A stretch of DNA of 64,000 nt, from contig CAMAXV010000008.1 in NCBI GenBank assembly GCA_945862385.1, positions 1-64,000 of the forward strand, given 5' to 3'. Origin of the DNA: Chitinophaga pinensis (GTDB taxonomy: Bacteria > Bacteroidota > Bacteroidia > Chitinophagales > Chitinophagaceae). Positions 24,110 through 56,215 of the stretch are shown here, piece by piece (the stretch's first letter is position 1; each line of letters begins with the position of its first letter). The notes beneath the pieces are model-generated. The model made no database searches. It worked only from the letters and a program-made list of their open reading frames with translations, and was not told the origin of the DNA. The translations under genes and the position numbers were made by a program.

Positions 24110-25042
24110 TCAATGCTGAAACTGTCTGGCTTCCGGAGTACCCTGCACCAGCCTGATGAAAATGTCGTTGAGAGAAGGGAGCACTTCGTGGAAGGAACGG
24201 ATATTCAGTCCTTTGTTGATGAAGTACTGGATTACATCATTGTTGGTAAATCCTTCGTTGATCTGAATTTTGAGCTGGTGTGTTGCAGCTGATTTCAGGT
24301 TGAAGAGGTGTATGGCGGTAAGTTCAGGTAACACAGGCTGATCGAAACCTATTTCGAAGATATTTTCCTTGAAATCCTGTTTAACCTGTGATACAGTTCC
24401 GTCAAGTATTTTCTGCCCTTTGTTTACCAGGACGATCTGGTCACATATTTCTTCAACCTGTTCCATCCGGTGGGTGCTGAAAATAATTGTTGCGCCAGCT
24501 TTAGCCAGGTTGAAAATCTCATCTTTGATCAGGTTGGCATTCACCGGATCCAGTCCGCTGAACGGCTCATCCAGGATGATGAGTTTTGGGTTATGCACTA
24601 CTGTGGTTACGAACTGCAGTTTCTGGCTCATCCCTTTAGAGAGGTCTTCTACTTTTTTATTCCACCAGGATTCCATCTGGAATTTAATGAACCAGGATTT
24701 GATATTTTCCATGGCTTCCTTTTTGGAAAGGCCTTTCAGTCGTGCCAGGTAGAGTACCTGTTCGCCGATTTTCATTTTTTTGTAAAGTCCCCTTTCCTCT
24801 GGCATGTAACCAATCAGTCCATTGTCTCGCAGCGGCTCAAACGGATTGCCGTTCAGTGTAATGTTACCTTCATCCGGCAGGAAAATGCCGGTAATCATGC
24901 GCAGCAGGGTTGTTTTGCCGGCACCGTTGGGGCCCAGCAGTCCGAATACAGATCCCTGGTTGATGGAGAAGCTGATGTCATCCACTGCTTTTTGTCCTGA
25001 AAAGTTCTTTTTCAGTCCGTTTATTTTGAGAATGGTTTCCAT
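24110..25042 (-). CDS. ABC transporter ATP-binding protein, NatA-like
   Basis: The 310-residue ATPase powers the adjacent NatB-like permease. Walker A is GLLGPNGAGKTTLLRMITG, the signature region is DLSKGMSQKLQF (LSKGM rather than LSGGQ, common in this class) and Walker B is LIILDEPFSGLDP. A C-terminal DUF4162-like domain follows. The ATG at 25040-25042 (METILKINGLKK) is chosen. The open frame continues upstream to 25129, but only through the AGTTGAGAGA repeat array. Confidence 0.93.
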   Translation of the reverse strand: METILKINGLKKNFSGQKAVDDISFSINQGSVFGLLGPNGAGKTTLLRMITGIFLPDEGNITLNGNPFEPLRDNGLIGYMPEERGLYKKMKIGEQVLYLARLKGLSKKEAMENIKSWFIKFQMESWWNKKVEDLSKGMSQKLQFVTTVVHNPKLIILDEPFSGLDPVNANLIKDEIFNLAKAGATIIFSTHRMEQVEEICDQIVLVNKGQKILDGTVSQVKQDFKENIFEIGFDQPVLPELTAIHLFNLKSAATHQLKIQINEGFTNNDVIQYFINKGLNIRSFHEVLPSLNDIFIRLVQGTPEARQFQH

Positions 25043-25070
25043 GGTATGAAGGTAAGAAGAAGTTGAGAGA

Positions 25071-25112
25071 GATAAGTTGAGAGAGAAGAAGTTGATAGAA
25101 TTAAGTTGAGAG
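25071..25112 (+). repeat. Left arm of the hairpin repeat element flanking a four-helix-bundle gene
   Basis: Three GTTGAGAG words and one variant (GTTGATAG) in forward orientation, separated by (A)GATA, AAGAA and AATTA. They match the 14-bp unit AGTTGAGAGA(A/G)TTA seen seven times at 55003-55100. The reverse-complement arm lies at 25558-25628. Confidence 0.8.
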
Positions 25113-25113
25113 T

Positions 25114-25473
25114 TTATGATTTTATACATCCCTTTCTTAGCCCACTTATCATCCTTGCAACTTCATGGAGTTCCTTTCTGAATTGATCGAGTTCAACATC
25201 GTTAATATAACCCATATCATGAGAAAGGATCAATTGATTTACTAGTTCCAGTAGGCTTGAATAAGCGATTGTGTAGAAATGTGCCTGATCTTTTTGACTA
25301 GACCTTCCCGAACCTTCTGCCAGATTTGATGCAATACTGATTGACGATCTTCTCATCTGGCTTGCAAGCCCGTGTTTTTCATAATCAGGGAAAATTTTAA
25401 CTGCAATGTAAATCCTTTTGATAACCAGTCGCGTTTTCTGCCATGCCAAAAGTTTTTCAAAAAGGAAATTCAT
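25114..25473 (-). CDS. Four-helix-bundle protein (S23 / 23S rRNA intervening-sequence family)
   Basis: This 119-residue helical protein of the S23/IVP family is related in fold to the Avd accessory protein of diversity-generating retroelements. Diagnostic segments are LLAWQKTRLVIKRIY, the central RRSSISIASNLAEGSGRSSQKD (in two parts) and FYTIAYSSLLELVNQLILS. It is basic and probably forms a barrel-shaped pentamer, as known for the family. Its molecular role is not established. The gene sits in the loop between inverted repeat arrays (25071-25112 and 25558-25628), unlike any other gene in this window. Confidence 0.9.
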   Translation of the reverse strand: MNFLFEKLLAWQKTRLVIKRIYIAVKIFPDYEKHGLASQMRRSSISIASNLAEGSGRSSQKDQAHFYTIAYSSLLELVNQLILSHDMGYINDVELDQFRKELHEVARMISGLRKGCIKS

Positions 25474-25557
25474 AAAGCAAAAGAAAAAAATAAACAGTTA
25501 TTGCAACTGTGTAAAAAACAATTCAAAAATGTTTTTTTCTCAATGCTAAAAAAATCA

Positions 25558-25628
25558 GCTCTCAACTAATCTCTCTCAACTCTCTCAACTAATCTCTCTC
25601 AACTAATCTCTCTCAACTCTCTCAACTA
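25558..25628 (-). repeat. Right arm of the hairpin repeat element
   Basis: Seven CTCTCAACT words, separated by AATCT(CT) or CT, form the reverse-complement partner of the left arm at 25071-25112. The end of the array codes the last residues and the TGA stop of the FAD oxidoreductase gene (25622-25624), so the element abuts or has inserted into the 3' end of that gene. Confidence 0.8.
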
Positions 25629-27172
25629 ATCCTCATGGCCACCTTCTGCCCATCCATGGCGGCGCTTACAATACCGCCGGCATAGCCTGCGCCTTCGGCG
25701 CAGGGGAATAGATTTTCAATTTGTGGATGGCGGAGTGTTTCGGGGTCGCGAGGTATGCGCACTGGCGAAGAAGTGCGGCTTTCCGGCGCAATGAGTATGG
25801 CTTCTTCGGTGAGGTAGCCTTTCATTTTTTTCCCGAATTGCTTAAAAGCTTCCCGGAGTGTGGCACTTACAAATCCAGGTAAAACGTCTTGCAGGTTAAC
25901 CGAATTGACGCCACGCAGGTATGAATTGGGTGGTAGTGTTGAGGATGAGCGGTTCATGACAAAATCTGTCATGCGCTGCGCCGGTGCAACGAATTGTCCG
26001 CCGCCAGCTTCGTATGCTTTCCTTTCCACCGATTCCTGAAAATCGTGCAGCGCCAGGGGACTTTCAATTTTTTTCAGGTCTGTCAGCTCCACCTGAACCA
26101 CCATGCCGGAGTTGGCGAATGGATTGTTGCGTTTACTCGGACTCCATCCATTTACCACCAGGGCTTCCTGGCTGGTGGATGCTGTGGCAATGATGCCACC
26201 CGGACACATACAAAATGAGAAGGCTCCTCTTCCCCTCACCTGTTCTACCAACTGGTATGCGGCGGGAGGCAGGTTGGGGTCTCGTGAAGTGTTAAGCGGA
26301 CAGTGATACTGGATCGAGTCGATCAGTGTCTGTGGGTGTTCGATACGCACCCCCATGGCAAAGGGTTTGGCTTCTATCAGGATTTGTTTGCGGTGCAACA
26401 GTTCAAAAATATCTTTTGCAGAATGCCCTGTGGCGAGGATGATATCCTTTCCACTAAAACTATTGCCGTTGGCAGTGATGACGGCCTTGATGCAGTTATT
26501 TACAATGGTGAGGTCCGTTACCCTTTCATTAAAATGCACTTCTCCTCCCGCGGCAATTATTTGTTCCCGCATCGCCTGGATGATACCAGGTAATTTATTG
26601 GTGCCGATATGGGGGTGAGCGGTGTAAAGTATGGAAGGATCTGCGCCGAACTGAACAAAGAGCTGCAGGATTTTGTCGATGCTGCCTCGTTTGTTGCTAC
26701 GCGTATAGAGTTTACCATCACTGTAGGTGCCAGCACCCCCTTCTCCGAAACAATAGTTACTGTCGTCATCCAGTATGCCATCCCGGTTAAGCGCAGCCAG
26801 ATCCCGCCGCCTGTCGCGCACATTTTTACCCCTTTCCAGGATTACCGGTTTGATACCCCTTTCTATCAGTTCCAGGGCTGCGAATAGTCCAGCCGGACCA
26901 GCCCCGATGATGACAACCCTTTCGGCATCAGGTTTCAGGTTAGGGAAGTTTACCTGCGGATAGGAGAAGTCTGAGAAAGGTTCATCAATAAAGGCATTAA
27001 CCTTCAGGGTGAACAATACATTCCTTCTCCTCGCATCGATGGATTTTTTCAGTATCCTGAAGCCGGTTATAGCGGATGATTTTTTACCCAGGTGATTGGC
27101 AATAGCAGTCTTGATGCTGTATTCCTGTGATGCTTCAGCCGGGGTAAGCTGCAATTGGATCTCCTGCTGCAT
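25622..27172 (-). CDS. NAD(P)/FAD-dependent oxidoreductase
   Basis: The 516-residue protein starts with MQEIQLQLTPAEASQEYSIK at 27170-27172; an upstream frame to 27265 would overlap the DUF3127 gene. After an N-terminal domain of about 85 residues comes the FAD Rossmann motif VVIIGAGPAGLFAALELIERG, then the GGAGTYSDGKLYTR segment and a C-terminal motif ENLFPCAEGAGYAGGIVSAAMDG. This is the pattern of the 'FAD-dependent protein' or BaiN-like flavoprotein family with uncertain substrate. It follows the DUF3127 gene by 7 bp. Its last codons and stop lie inside a repeat array. Confidence 0.88.
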   Translation of the reverse strand: MQQEIQLQLTPAEASQEYSIKTAIANHLGKKSSAITGFRILKKSIDARRRNVLFTLKVNAFIDEPFSDFSYPQVNFPNLKPDAERVVIIGAGPAGLFAALELIERGIKPVILERGKNVRDRRRDLAALNRDGILDDDSNYCFGEGGAGTYSDGKLYTRSNKRGSIDKILQLFVQFGADPSILYTAHPHIGTNKLPGIIQAMREQIIAAGGEVHFNERVTDLTIVNNCIKAVITANGNSFSGKDIILATGHSAKDIFELLHRKQILIEAKPFAMGVRIEHPQTLIDSIQYHCPLNTSRDPNLPPAAYQLVEQVRGRGAFSFCMCPGGIIATASTSQEALVVNGWSPSKRNNPFANSGMVVQVELTDLKKIESPLALHDFQESVERKAYEAGGGQFVAPAQRMTDFVMNRSSSTLPPNSYLRGVNSVNLQDVLPGFVSATLREAFKQFGKKMKGYLTEEAILIAPESRTSSPVRIPRDPETLRHPQIENLFPCAEGAGYAGGIVSAAMDGQKVAMRIS

Positions 27173-27179
27173 GAAATAA

Positions 27180-27560
27180 TCAGAAAGGCAGGTCGTCTGC
27201 CGCACCTGATTGTCCCATTGGATCAGGTGAGAAAGCAGGAGGTGTTTCGATGCCACCGCCAGCACCCATGCTCACTTGTTCAATTCTCCAGGCGTCGAGG
27301 TTGGTGATGTAGTTAACCTGTCCGTTTTTCTCCCAACGGGATCCTTTGATATTAAAATGTACTTTTACAGTGTCTCCAACGTTGAAGCGATCGAGGATAC
27401 CTGTGCGATCCTGAACAGTCTGAAATTTTACAAAGTTGGTGATGGTCCTGCCATTGATATCTTCATTCGTTTCAACAACGAATTCCCTTGTTTTGAAGGT
27501 AGCGCTACGCTGGATGGTTTCAAATTTGGCAACAATTTTGCCTGTGAGATCAAATGCCAT
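27180..27560 (-). CDS. DUF3127 (OB-fold, SSB-like) protein
   Basis: The 126-residue protein starts MAFDLTGKIVAKFE at 27558-27560; an upstream ATG at 27590 is less likely because a TAACTTCG box lies between them. The N-terminal 90 residues match DUF3127, an OB-fold family (FVVETNEDINGRTITNFVKFQ; VHFNIKGSRWEKNGQVNYITNLDAWRI in two parts). A disordered Gly/Pro-rich tail ends in DDLPF, which closely mimics the acidic, Phe-terminated tip of single-stranded DNA-binding proteins. A role in DNA binding or protein recruitment is therefore plausible but inferred. Confidence 0.85.
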   Translation of the reverse strand: MAFDLTGKIVAKFETIQRSATFKTREFVVETNEDINGRTITNFVKFQTVQDRTGILDRFNVGDTVKVHFNIKGSRWEKNGQVNYITNLDAWRIEQVSMGAGGGIETPPAFSPDPMGQSGAADDLPF

Positions 27561-31397: not shown

Positions 31398-32303
31398 ATG
31401 ATGAAAAGAGACCTACTTAAACCCACTGCGGATGTTGTTTTCAAGCGGATTTTCGGACAGGAAAAAGAGATCACAATTGAGTTTATAAACTTGTTTGTCG
31501 AGCCACCGGAGCCAGTTGTAGACATTACTTACTTGAAACAGGAAATGCTGGCAGATAACCGGGATGGAAAAGTTTCTGTAGTGGATATCAGATGCACAGA
31601 TACCAATAACCAGCATTTTATTTTAGAGATGCAGGTTGTGCACCATGATGGTTTCTTGAACAGGCAATTGCTTTATGCCTGCAAGGCTTATGCCCTACAA
31701 TATATTTCTGGCGAAAAATACAAACCAAAGCATCCTGTATTTTTATTGACCATTGTTGATCATGAAATATTACCCGGTGTTGCCGACTGGAATCATGAAT
31801 TTTCATTTAACCATCAAACACATCCGGAAATTAAAGTAGAAGGACTTTCCCTGCGTTTTATAGAGTTGGCAAAAAGAAGAAAATTGGATAATTTTAATAT
31901 GGAAAACCCTACTGACCGTTGGTTGAAATTTTTAGCCGAACCTGAAAAACTCATCACCATGCAAAAATTTGATATTTCCGTTTATCCCAATTTACTCAAA
32001 GCAACCGAATTGCTGGACAGGTCAAATTTTACCATAGAACAGCAAATTGCTTACGACAGGCATTGGTTTGCCGTGGCAGATATTAACCAGGTCCGCATTG
32101 ATAGCTATGACCGGGGGCATGGAGATGGTCGTGAAGAAGGTAAAGTCGAAGGTCGTGAAGAAGGTCGTGAAGAAGGTTTTGACCTTACCTTGAATTTAAT
32201 TGATGAATTAGAAAAAGGTGTTCTGTCTAATGAAGAACTTGCAGAGAAATATTCAAAACCGCTGGCAGTAATTGAGAAATTAGCTGCAAAATTCAGGAGA
32301 TGA
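31398..32303 (+). CDS. Rpn family recombination-promoting nuclease / putative transposase
   Basis: The 301-residue protein belongs to the Rpn/PDDEXK_2 family of DNA nucleases. The start (DLLKPTADVVFKRIFGQ) and the nuclease core VVDIRCTDTNNQHFILEMQ (D...ExQ metal site), followed by RQLLYACKAYALQYISGE, are diagnostic. A middle helical region with TDRWLKFLAEPE comes next, then a charged Gly-Arg-Glu-Glu repeat (about 245-265) before a short C-terminal helix pair. Rpn proteins promote RecA-independent recombination and some act in phage defence; the role here is unproven. It is the first gene of the tRNA-Pro island, and a truncated relative follows. Confidence 0.9.
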   Translation: MMKRDLLKPTADVVFKRIFGQEKEITIEFINLFVEPPEPVVDITYLKQEMLADNRDGKVSVVDIRCTDTNNQHFILEMQVVHHDGFLNRQLLYACKAYALQYISGEKYKPKHPVFLLTIVDHEILPGVADWNHEFSFNHQTHPEIKVEGLSLRFIELAKRRKLDNFNMENPTDRWLKFLAEPEKLITMQKFDISVYPNLLKATELLDRSNFTIEQQIAYDRHWFAVADINQVRIDSYDRGHGDGREEGKVEGREEGREEGFDLTLNLIDELEKGVLSNEELAEKYSKPLAVIEKLAAKFRR

Positions 32304-32608
32304 GCTTGCCTGCCTTCGTAAGGAGAAATTAGTTGAGAGAATTAAGTTGAGAGCATTTATTTCTCAACCCTCAACTAAATTCTCTCAATCTGCCTTTCAC
32401 CCTTGTGCCCAGCCTAAGGCTGTCAAGATCGTGCCTTTTGCCTAATTTAGTTCCCAAGCTCCCCTCACCTGCCTACCGTCAGGCAGGCTCGTTCCGCTTC
32501 GCGAAACTCGGAGCCCCTTCCGCCACGGCGGACAGGCTCTGGCCATTCGCTTCACTCATGGCAGGAGGGGAATTTTAATGGTAATTGAACATGTAGTAAA
32601 AGTTAAAA
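32304..32608. other. Repeat-rich gene-free stretch between the two Rpn copies
   Basis: These 305 bp hold a minimal copy of the AGTTGAGAGA hairpin element (32333-32387), a diverged copy of the GTGCCCAGCCTA repeat (32404-32442) and a G+C-rich block with short inverted repeats (for instance CCTGCC and GGCAGG near 32470-32490). No open frame of note is seen. Confidence 0.6.
32333..32387 (+). repeat. Minimal copy of the AGTTGAGAGA hairpin element
   Basis: AGTTGAGAGAATTA plus AGTTGAGAG in forward orientation, about 8 bp of spacer, then TCTCAACCCTCAACT and AATTCTCTCAA in reverse orientation. It would fold into a hairpin with no gene in the loop. It lies just downstream of the intact Rpn gene. Confidence 0.75.
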
Positions 32609-53438: not shown

Positions 53439-54992
53439 ATGAACAGGTTTGCTTTATGCGTTTTAGCAGTTTTTTGTCTATTCGTATCTCCGGTCATGTC
53501 TCAGGAAAAAGTGGACACAGACATGATGAGCAGGATCAGGGAAGAGGGACTGAATAAGTCTCAGGTAATGGATATAGCGCTCCACCTGACCGACCTGAAT
53601 GGCAATCGACTCGCCAATTCTCCTGGATATACAAGGGCAGCAAACTATGCCATCAGCAAACTCAATGCCTGGGGTGTGCAAAATGCCAGGCAGGAAGCCT
53701 GGGGAGAATTCGGTAAAGGCTGGGAGCTCGAGAAAATGTACTTCGCCATGACGGCGCCTTATTATAAGCCTATTATGGCATATCCCAAGACCTGGACCTC
53801 TGGTACAAAAGGTCTGAAGTCTGGAGAGCTGATCGTTGTTGAACTGAAAGATTCAGCATCTCTCATGAGCATGAAGGGTAAATTGAAAGGTAAAGTCATC
53901 ATCCCGGATATGACTTATGAATACAAGATGAGCTTCAAAGCGGATGCAGTTCGCTACACTGAAGAAGAATTGAAACAAATGGAAGCCGCACAGAGTGGTG
54001 GACAGCAGCAGCGTCAGGTGAGGGATACCGCACAGATGCGCAGGATGCGTGAACAGATGCAAAGAACTATGGGGCCGCAAAGGGTTCTTGCCCTGTTAAA
54101 GGAAATGGCTAAGGCTGAAGGTGCAGTTGCCCTGCTCAGCAGCTCCACACGCAACCATGACGGGACGGTATTTGCTCAGGGCGGTGGTGCATACAAGGGT
54201 AAGGATCCTGAAAATTTTCTGGATATGGCACTTCCCGTGGAAGATTACAACACTTTGCTGCGTATTGCGAAATCCGGTGCTGTAGTGAAACTAGAAACCG
54301 ATGTGAAAACAAAATTCTATACTGATGACCTCAAGGGCTACAATGTGATTGCAGAAATACCAGGTACCGATCCTGCCCTGAAAGATGAAGTGGTGATGAT
54401 TGGTGCACACCTCGATTCCTGGCAGGCAGGTACAGGTGCTACAGATAATGCTTCCGGATCTGCAGTGATGCTGGAAGCCATGCGCATCATCAAGGCGCTG
54501 GGTATTCAGCCGAAAAGAACGATACGCATAGGGTTATGGAGTGCTGAAGAGCAGGGACTGATGGGGTCAAGGGGATATGTGGCGAACACATTTGGCGGTG
54601 TGGGTGGCAATGCCAAAACAGCTGCACATGAAAAGTTTTCAGGATATTATAACATAGACAATGGAACAGGTAAAATCAGGGGTATTTACCTTCAGGGTAA
54701 TGAGGCATGCAGGTCAATTTTTGCTGCATGGCTCGCTCCATTCAAAGACCTGGGAGCTACAACCGTGACCATCAGCAATACAGGCGGAACCGATCACCAG
54801 GCTTTTGATGCAGCCGGGTTGCCAGGTTTCCAGTTTATTCAGGATCCGATGGAATATGATACACGCACACACCACAGTAATATGGATGTGTATGATCACC
54901 TGTCTGCCGACGACCTGAAACAGATCGCAACCATCGTTGCTGCATTTGTTTATAATACTGCCCAGCGTGATGCAAAGTTGCCGAGGAAGTAG
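53439..54992 (+). CDS. M28 family metallopeptidase, secreted
   Basis: The 517-residue protein starts MNRFALCVLAVFCLFVSPVMS (two parts; signal, ATG 53439). A protease-associated (PA)-like insert spans about residues 130-270. The M28 zinc sites follow: GAHLDSWQAGTGATDNASGS (His and Asp), SAEEQGLMGSRGY (catalytic Glu pair), YNIDNGTG (Asp) and THHSNMD (His). The layout is that of bacterial aminopeptidases such as those in the peptidase-processing loci of Bacteroidota. The protein should act in the periplasm or outside. The gene ends 10 bp before the long hairpin repeat. Confidence 0.92.
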   Translation: MNRFALCVLAVFCLFVSPVMSQEKVDTDMMSRIREEGLNKSQVMDIALHLTDLNGNRLANSPGYTRAANYAISKLNAWGVQNARQEAWGEFGKGWELEKMYFAMTAPYYKPIMAYPKTWTSGTKGLKSGELIVVELKDSASLMSMKGKLKGKVIIPDMTYEYKMSFKADAVRYTEEELKQMEAAQSGGQQQRQVRDTAQMRRMREQMQRTMGPQRVLALLKEMAKAEGAVALLSSSTRNHDGTVFAQGGGAYKGKDPENFLDMALPVEDYNTLLRIAKSGAVVKLETDVKTKFYTDDLKGYNVIAEIPGTDPALKDEVVMIGAHLDSWQAGTGATDNASGSAVMLEAMRIIKALGIQPKRTIRIGLWSAEEQGLMGSRGYVANTFGGVGGNAKTAAHEKFSGYYNIDNGTGKIRGIYLQGNEACRSIFAAWLAPFKDLGATTVTISNTGGTDHQAFDAAGLPGFQFIQDPMEYDTRTHHSNMDVYDHLSADDLKQIATIVAAFVYNTAQRDAKLPRK

Positions 54993-55002
54993 AGGGGGGC
55001 TT

Positions 55003-55195
55003 AGTTGAGAGAGTTAAGTTGAGAGAGTTAAGTTGAGAGAGTTAAGTTGAGAGAATTAAGTTGAGAGAATTAAGTTGAGAGAATTAAGTTGAGAGAATTA
55101 AGTAGTAATTTCAACTATCATCTCTAAACTCTAATCTCTAATCTCTCAACTCTGATCTCTCAACTCTAAACTCACAACTCTAATCTCTCAACTCA
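55003..55195 (+). repeat. Long AGTTGAGAGA hairpin element (empty)
   Basis: Seven perfect 14-bp tandem units, AGTTGAGAGAGTTA x3 then AGTTGAGAGAATTA x4 (55003-55100), about 17 bp of spacer, then several 14-bp reverse units of the TAATCTCTCAACTC type (55118-55195). The two arms are complementary and can fold into a long stem. The ATG of the next gene begins directly at the end of the right arm. Confidence 0.85.
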
Positions 55196-56215
55196 ATGAA
55201 ATACTCCTTCTGGTTTACTTTATTAACCCTGGCTGCTTTCGCCTGCCAGCAACCATCCGGTGTTTCCACTGCAGACTATTTTGCCAGGCAGGATTCAGGC
55301 ATGCAGACGGGCAATGTAAAAGTTGTGGAAATTGAAAGCATGGGGAAGAAGTTCAACATCTGGACCAAAAGATTTGGCAATAATCCCAAGACTAAAATTC
55401 TTCTCCTGAATGGTGGTCCGGGGGGTACCCATGAATATTTTGAATGCTTTGAGAATTTCCTGCCACAGGAAGGAATAGAATTCATTTACTACGACCAGCT
55501 TGGTTGCGGTCTCTCTGATAACCCGAATGACACAGCATACTGGGATCTCCCTCGTTTTGTGGAAGAAGTAGAACAGGTCAGAACTGCTTTGGGGTTGTCT
55601 AAAGATAACTTTTACCTGCTTGGTCATTCCTGGGGTGGTATCCTGGCCATGCAATATGCCCTGAAATATCAGCAAAACCTGAGAGCCCTGGTCATTTCCA
55701 ATATGATGTCCAGTTGTCCGGATTACGGCAAATATGCTGATGAAGTACTGGCTAAACAGATGGATCCGGCTTTGGTAGACACCATCAATGCCATGGAAGC
55801 CAGGGGAGCCTATACTGATCCCGGCTATATGCAAATTCTCATACCCAATTATTATGAAAAGCATATCCTGCGTCTGCCTTCGGCACAATGGCCGGAACCT
55901 GTTAACCGTTCATTTGCCAAAATGAACCAATCACTTTATGTCACCATGCAGGGCCCAAGTGAATTCGGAATTGCAGGCAGGCTGTCTAATTGGGATGTCA
56001 GCAAAAGATTGCCGGAAATTGGAGTGCCCACATTGGTAATTGGTGCACAGCACGATACCATGGATCCCGAGCATATGAAGTGGATGTCTACTCAGGTGAA
56101 GAATGGTACCTTCCTCTATTGTGAGAACGGCAGTCACATGGCTATGTACGACGATCAGCAGACCTATTTCAAAGGTCTCATTGATTTTGTTAAAAAGACA
56201 TCTGCCGGGAAATAA
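55196..56215 (+). CDS. Proline-iminopeptidase-like S33 alpha/beta hydrolase lipoprotein
   Basis: This 339-residue protein has a lipoprotein signal MKYSFWFTLLTLAAFACQQ (lipobox AFAC). The S33 motifs are LNGGPGGTHEYF (in place of HGGPG) and the nucleophile elbow LLGHSWGGILAM; YYDQLGCGLSDNP is the third family block. Asp in IGAQHDTMDPE and His in CENGSHMAMYD complete the triad. It probably removes N-terminal prolines or amino acids from peptides. The start lies at the end of a repeat array, so no ordinary promoter is visible in the 30 bp before it. Confidence 0.9.
   Translation: MKYSFWFTLLTLAAFACQQPSGVSTADYFARQDSGMQTGNVKVVEIESMGKKFNIWTKRFGNNPKTKILLLNGGPGGTHEYFECFENFLPQEGIEFIYYDQLGCGLSDNPNDTAYWDLPRFVEEVEQVRTALGLSKDNFYLLGHSWGGILAMQYALKYQQNLRALVISNMMSSCPDYGKYADEVLAKQMDPALVDTINAMEARGAYTDPGYMQILIPNYYEKHILRLPSAQWPEPVNRSFAKMNQSLYVTMQGPSEFGIAGRLSNWDVSKRLPEIGVPTLVIGAQHDTMDPEHMKWMSTQVKNGTFLYCENGSHMAMYDDQQTYFKGLIDFVKKTSAGK

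Follow-up and report, generated by a model that had tools for sequence, protein, structure and literature searches.

Genes of the S23/IVP family ('four helix bundle protein') are present in many bacteria and, to our knowledge, have no known function. One such gene lies in a 64,000-nt stretch of Chitinophaga pinensis DNA (contig CAMAXV010000008.1, positions 1 to 64,000; the whole stretch is called the window below), in the loop of an inverted array of short repeats, and the locus raises the question whether gene and repeats form one unit and whether such a unit can move. A preliminary description had favoured a hairpin-bounded mobile or structured unit, with gene-less copies elsewhere in the window as its empty derivatives. 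On the evidence assembled here we think it likely that the locus represents a mobile element of the intervening-sequence type, in which a heptad array, an S23/IVP open reading frame (ORF) and a complementary heptad array follow one another over about 420–570 nt, and which settles behind or into stop codons, often inside an operon. Its architecture, the generality of this architecture, lineage-specific insertion and the occurrence of solo and deleted derivatives are established by the observations that follow.

The ORF in the loop (25114–25473, minus strand; 119 amino acids) is matched by the profiles PF05635 (E = 6.2e-33; 113.6 bits against a curated cut-off of 33.8) and TIGR02436 (E = 6.4e-32; 110 bits against a cut-off of 24), and a solved relative of its four-helix-bundle product is XCC0516 of Xanthomonas (PDB 2gsc; E = 5.8e-18). 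That this gene is flanked by inverted repeat copies was confirmed: the window contains 24 copies of the motif GTTGAGAG, where 1.9 would be expected, and 0 of 100 shuffles reached this number. Read in the sense of the gene, the 5′ arm (25559–25631, minus strand) reads GATTAGTTGAGAG... and contains copies of GTTGAGAG 14 or 9 nt apart, six reverse copies lying within 25559–25626; the 3′ arm (25061–25112, plus strand) consists of inverted copies of the same heptad array, with plus-strand copies of GTTGAGAG starting at 25062, 25076 and 25105 and a one-base variant at 25091. In the preliminary description the first forward copy had been put at 25071. In the predicted RNA fold of the whole locus the two arms pair with each other (−168.4 kcal/mol; z = −4.2, 20 shuffles), as that description had suggested should be checked. 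The gene is situated between two protein genes and not inside a 23S rRNA gene. A search of the window with Rfam returned two tRNAs only, and a 26-base core segment of 23S rRNA was absent from all S23 loci scanned, most of them with 1.5–4 kb per side.

Do S23/IVP genes generally sit between inverted arms? In the source genome and 39 relatives, such genes were located at 88 places in 29 of the 40 genomes. The analysis covered 69 of these places, the 19 left out being mostly weak or partial matches plus some that were unretrieved; 66 of the 69, the window's own included, had flanks of 150 nt or more on either side. An arm score was obtained by aligning the upstream flank with the reverse complement of the downstream flank. 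With a threshold of 36, chosen after the first scores had been seen, arms were present at 40 of the 66 loci and at 2 of 81 control ORFs, which were taken from the same loci, away from the S23 gene, and were not matched for intergenic position (Fisher P = 5e-16); at a score of at least 40 the counts were 34/66 and 1/81. A second set comprised named loci, the best 80 of 551 confirmed and therefore leaning towards the query. Here a score of at least 36 was reached by 47/79 loci against 8/127 controls and 2% of swapped flank pairs, and one of at least 40 by 38/79 against 4/127. Inclusion of the last 45 nt of the ORF raised the numbers to 45/66 and 55/79 (10/127 for the controls of the named loci). 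For 97 of 145 loci the true partner flank ranked within the top 5% of swapped partners. S23/IVP genes are therefore found between inverted heptad arrays far above the control level, with letters that differ by locus; the relatives' arms use, among others, GGGACAA, GGTTGTA, GTTATGA and AACGTTA.

By record title, the named loci scoring at least 36 belong to Bacteroidota, Verrucomicrobiota, Planctomycetota, Armatimonadota, Acidobacteriota and candidate phyla; among the same best 80 of 551, loci titled Nitrospira, Cloacimonadota and Gottesmanbacteria scored below 36. On viral contigs 11 of 18 loci scored at least 36, some of them near-identical to one another and with no control set; the phage records searched gave no match.

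The repeat had been described as a 14-bp family, a description that has to be revised. In 87 strong loci, self-identity was 0.54, 0.53 and 0.47 at lags of 7, 14 and 21, and 0.27–0.31 at other lags except 8 (0.37) and 16 (0.35). The unit is thus a heptad, and the 14-nt unit of the window is made of two, AGTTGAG and the more variable AGANTTA. Among arms of at least 28 nt the best lag was 7 in 52 of 80 and 8 in 15 of 80. The 5′ arm contains more G than C in 79 of the 87 strong loci, and the median loop length is 427 nt.

Where the upstream ORF is co-directional (72 strong loci), the median start of the array, counted from the stop codon of that ORF, is −3 nt (quartiles −15 and +3). The window locus is of this kind. 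The upstream, co-directional gene (25622–27265, minus strand; FAD-dependent oxidoreductase-like, named by inspection) ends ...VAMRIS, its DNA reading ...ATT AGT TGA, and the stop codon TGA at 25622–25624 is supplied by the first array unit (AGTTGA). Downstream follows a further co-directional gene (24110–25042, minus strand; product METILKINGLKK...), by inspection the ATP-binding protein of an ATP-binding cassette (ABC) transporter. Inside the arms of the window locus, between the 5′ arm and the S23 start codon, a small terminator-like hairpin was read from the sequence (25494–25510, minus strand; ACAGTT-GCAAT-AACTGT followed by a T-rich stretch), and hairpins in the same position were observed at L006, L008 and L013. 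They may be the neighbour's old terminator or part of the element.

If the unit is inserted, orthologous gene pairs should be found that lack it. The oxidoreductase and ABC transporter genes are adjacent (22–188 nt), with no S23 gene and, by eye, no array between them, at 21 of 29 relatives' loci; eight more carry no information, the contig ending or the neighbour being a different one. At a second site, between the convergent genes secDF and iscA (names by inspection), 3 of 30 loci contain both arms and gene, and G045 contains an array pair without the gene, placed around a plain terminator; 22 lack the S23 gene and show no clear array pair by eye (among them G021, with a short heptad-like hairpin), and 4 could not be read. 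Insertion is thus lineage-specific, arms and gene being absent together from orthologous gene pairs. At the window locus a target duplication could not be read.

The same material bears on a different explanation, in which the unit has no present mobility and is a vertically kept regulatory hairpin that tunes the two adjoining genes, with the S23 protein as its binding partner. In the three secDF-site orthologues, dN/dS, the ratio of non-synonymous to synonymous substitution, is 0.04–0.13 for the S23 ORF (two of three dS values saturated), and since this indicates purifying selection the S23 protein seems to matter at that site. The gene order fadB-S23-fadA (gene names by inspection) is found in three families, and the upstream neighbour is co-directional at 126 of 143 loci (control pairs: 186 of 241). 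All three observations count in favour of a vertically kept hairpin. This explanation fits poorly with the patchy presence at orthologous pairs, with near-identical empty sites and with the existence of several landing sites, and we regard it as improbable.

The clearest picture came from cyanobacterial plasmids. Arms scoring at least 36 are present at 8/8 plasmid loci when the ORF end is included and at 3/8 when it is not, since the 3′ arm and the ORF frequently overlap there. The copy in Trichormus variabilis is a net insertion of 428 nt relative to sites that are about 98% identical in six plasmids. Of the three empty sites read, two define, by strict overlap, a 5-bp repeat GTAAT that holds the stop codon; in the third, a base close by is changed. 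Plasmids of Nostoc and Aulosira possess a copy of the same element, 78–82% identical, in flanks without a blastn match. Reduced forms occur as well: Brasilonema has an array-only hairpin at the Trichormus variabilis insertion site (L366), Nostoc C052 has one decayed copy (L360) and one with an internal deletion (L369), the array-only copy of Halotia keeps the sequence around the S23 start (L371), and at L372 a solo hairpin lies within an S23 ORF. In a second gene cluster, two adjoining gene borders bear S23 insertions, in different plasmids and with different arms (L354/L363 and L365). At site 2 a further 5-bp target duplication, TTCTA, was considered and rejected, as strict overlap fails; its right-hand copy falls on the terminal GAATTCT unit of the element, which makes the site ambiguous. 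The proposed search for empty sites and target duplications was accordingly successful for the former, the latter being clear at one site only.

By annotation, the neighbours of the plasmid S23 genes are cas6/cas4 (two plasmids), cas10/Cmr3-family genes, ribonucleotide reductase subunits and, at one side, a TrbI/VirB10 gene. At L352, L353 and L356 S23/IVP genes are inserted in operons of the clustered regularly interspaced short palindromic repeat (CRISPR)-Cas type (cas10-cmr3 and cas6-cas4). In the cas6-cas4 spacer of Dolichospermum 0315A (L367) a different inverted repeat (GTAGGTTGGGTT...AACCCAACCTAC) occupies the place where Anabaena 90 has an S23 element; the two plasmids are 99% identical over their matching parts.

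Gene-less arrays exist in the source genome too. This genome, G000 (3.07 Mb in 80 contigs, 99.5% complete), has one S23/IVP gene by profile search. Its doubled motif yields 32 matches at 11 places, one with the S23 gene and ten without; the exact doubled motif was not found in the 39 relatives searched. Seven of the ten gene-less places have an inverted partner (exact copies or by eye), the one on contig C59 is ambiguous, and two (C5 at 156467, and C15) have none. Both gene-less inverted arrays noticed earlier in the window were confirmed: one (32331–32388) lies behind a PD-(D/E)XK transposase-family gene (31398–32303), and the other (55003–55195) fills the spacer of two co-directional genes (stop codon at 54992, ATG at 55196). 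By analogy with the cyanobacterial copies, the solo arrays of the source genome may be derivatives of the full form and not its precursors.

Three further features of the solo arrays were observed. The gene at 31398–32303 matches the PD-(D/E)XK nuclease family transposase profile (PF12784, 8.7e-37) and has the heptad array directly behind it, and at L046 (G000 C59, about 1951–2070) a reading frame with, by eye, a similar end is likewise directly followed by a heptad array; transposases of this family are candidates for moving heptad arrays. At L040 (4327) and in the window (54992–55003) solo arrays start, by eye, at or just past the preceding stop codon, like S23 elements. Within or beside several solo heptad arrays of G000 (L039, L044 and L045) there is a second palindromic repeat, of the kind GCCTGCCTNNGGCAGGC.

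The distribution of array motifs among 41 genomes was analysed next to that of the gene. Each tested motif is restricted to some genomes within the genus: ACGTTNN has 822 matches in G019, 995 in G048, 15 in G051 and 0 in the other 38, while GGGACRA and GTTGTAN are each present in 13 of the 41. In G019 and G048 the ACGTTNN triple-unit pattern is unusually dense (both strands, overlapping matches counted). Six genomes (G019, G024, G002, G010, G001 and G015) carry the motif of their own S23 locus; in G008 arms and motif disagree, 27 GGGACRA matches being accompanied by GTTGAAG arms. A motif was present in 8 of 10 non-source genomes with the gene and in 1 of 10 without it, a comparison that is confounded by kinship and incomplete genomes and in which the motifs were drawn from gene-bearing genomes. 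Hairpins numbered 12 in 0.96 Mb with the gene and 4 in 0.70 Mb without, and lag-7 arrays 14 in 1.01 Mb and 2 in 1.1 Mb, in a sample for which G002 C3/C6, the window and G000 C5 had been chosen as known array holders and in which the G015 stretch has its own S23 locus. The reversed control of one motif gave 103 matches in G014.

These numbers lead to the question of which came first. Inverted heptad hairpins might be a general, slippage-made feature of gene ends, in which S23 genes are passengers that land or survive best. Such an origin would suit the source genome, where gene-less array places outnumber the gene-bearing one by 10 to 1, the array pair around a plain terminator at the secDF site of G045, the up to 995 matches of one motif in one genome, and the arrays of genomes in which the S23 gene search found none (G017, for instance, has seven lag-8 arrays); G045 and G048 were outside the S23 gene search. 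Because arrays exist in genomes without a detected gene, we make no claim that array persistence depends on the gene. An origin of the arrays before the gene does not explain why empty sites lack both arms and gene together, why the cyanobacterial element takes like arms to several sites or why such arms are rare around control ORFs. We consider it unlikely, though less so than the purely regulatory hairpin.

The preferred interpretation, a mobile intervening-sequence-type element, draws on the excess over controls, the joint absence of arms and gene and the filled and empty pair differing by 428 nt, which together support the hairpin-bounded mobile unit of the preliminary description. In a transcript the two arms would anneal to form a long stem whose loop carries the S23 gene. 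This stem is probably a substrate of RNase III, as in the Coxiella intervening sequence discussed below; cleavage would release the S23 message and part the messages of the genes on either side. The solved relative of the S23 protein is a ring of five chains, and the protein probably attaches to the heptad stem or to the arms; full and empty copies would be moved by a borrowed host nuclease or transposase. Slippage and arm-to-arm correction would then let the heptad letters drift, so that lineages end with motifs of their own.

Several observations weigh against this interpretation, besides the late choice of the arm threshold, the unmatched controls and the arrays in genomes without a detected gene. 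Below the arm threshold are 26/66 and 32/79 loci, and only 25/66 score above the 99th percentile of the full set of swapped pairs. Just one site has a clear target duplication; site 2 is ambiguous, site 2b is imperfect, and the nested solo hairpin L372 has none. At the secDF site and in the window the arms enclose terminator-like hairpins, and the element encodes no known enzyme. In Coxiella, the S23p protein is thought by the authors not to be made, its ORF being in decay, and heptads at the 3′ end of the intervening sequence are not stated in the available part of the report (PMC4990558). The two arms of one locus usually match; evidence that they change together is mixed. At the secDF-iscA site the arms of G024 score 63 with each other and 32–47 with those of G012 and G023, whereas the arms of G023 score 44 with each other and 64 with those of G012, which has the same GGGAGAA motif; at the fadB-fadA site the arms of G038 score 30 with each other and 32–36 across. 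Joint change is therefore clear for only one of the compared orthologues (G024), and this mixed result slightly lowered our confidence in a mobile element.

Movement without an enzyme of its own also leaves room for a route through reverse transcription, in which the S23 protein would act like Avd, together with a host reverse transcriptase, and the element would move through its RNA hairpin. Avd, the accessory protein of diversity-generating retroelements (DGRs), is described as distant kin of the S23/IVP family (PMC10053308). Avd profiles match the S23 protein of the window weakly, below their cut-offs (bAvd 30.7 bits against 40; DivGenRetAVD 31.5 against 80), and three genomes (G025, G026 and G029) have both the reverse transcriptase domain RVT_1 and an S23 gene. 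A DGR requires a reverse transcriptase, and RVT_1 had 0 matches in G000, which also counts against the preferred interpretation; the domain was found in 4 of 25 genomes only and in none of the S23-bearing genomes G000, G001, G002, G008, G010, G012, G015 and G032. Because none was found in the source genome and several others that bear the gene, a reverse transcriptase is an unlikely mover, and we give this route very little credence.

Taken together, the results place S23/IVP genes in one recurrent anatomy and point to the heptad-framed S23 element as a widespread, little-noticed kind of mobile element that recurs in several bacterial phyla behind gene ends. More tentatively, and with somewhat under even confidence, we propose a class of mobile elements extending from Bacteroidota to cyanobacteria and candidate phyla, which would have neither transposase nor reverse transcriptase, a ring-forming S23 protein and matched, lineage-diversified heptad arms; its full copies would act in trans for the many empty hairpins that share their motif, it would settle behind stop codons and be excised from messages by RNase III, and the classical S23-bearing 23S intervening sequences would be its rRNA-resident branch. 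The origin of S23-bearing rRNA intervening sequences thereby gains a testable answer, and intergenic heptad repeats of several phyla may be tied to S23/IVP genes. The question is raised of how an element moves without a known enzyme.

Among known systems the nearest is the S23p-encoding intervening sequence of 23S rRNA, as in Coxiella burnetii (PMC4990558). There, two or three tandem GACAGAT heptads and one variant precede the S23p ORF, the terminal stem is 28 bp long, and an RNase III site at the first repeat is cleaved in vitro; the same source reports XCC0516 of Xanthomonas as a homopentamer of four-helix bundles. The preliminary description knew of no link between S23-family genes and a 14-bp hairpin repeat family; for the Coxiella element, heptads next to an S23p ORF were already in print. 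Both have complementary ends with an S23/IVP ORF between them, tandem heptads immediately 5′ of that ORF and a similar size (428–444 nt). The elements described here differ in lying between protein genes and not in rRNA, in having heptad arrays as both arms and in the solo arrays that share a motif with the S23 arms of their genome; RNase III excision, seen in vitro for the Coxiella element, would for them be a prediction. A literature search by titles and the beginnings of abstracts, with subscription papers and preprints outside its reach, found among the papers listed no link between S23/IVP genes placed between protein genes and inverted heptad arrays.

In REPIN/RAYT systems, hairpin repeats in many copies are possibly served in trans by one gene, and RAYT is an HUH nuclease. 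The gene described here differs in that it belongs to PF05635, which has no known catalytic site; its only other Pfam match was the weak one to bAvd. As in miniature inverted-repeat transposable elements (MITEs), lineage-specific insertion with empty sites was found. The BrickBuilt MITE of Porphyromonas gingivalis is likewise an intergenic stem-loop with tandem repeats, without its own transposase and with target duplications of varying length; it differs in its minisatellite of 23-nt repeats, in its ends, which resemble those of the insertion sequence family IS5, and in having no gene inside (PMC4596501). The TAACTGA heptamer repeats of Beggiatoaceae, some cyanobacteria and Bacteroidetes share with our arrays that they are intergenic heptad arrays adjoining genes, and differ in being one fixed heptad in direct arrays mostly upstream of start codons, with one inverted case; the term S23 is absent from the main text of that report (PMC4679880). 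Lastly, a figure legend of a terascale CRISPR survey lists a 23S rRNA IVP among CRISPR-linked proteins (PMC10910872). Some S23 genes sit in cas operons here; the CRISPR linkage of such genes may thus be explained, and S23 insertions into cas operons could account for the published label.
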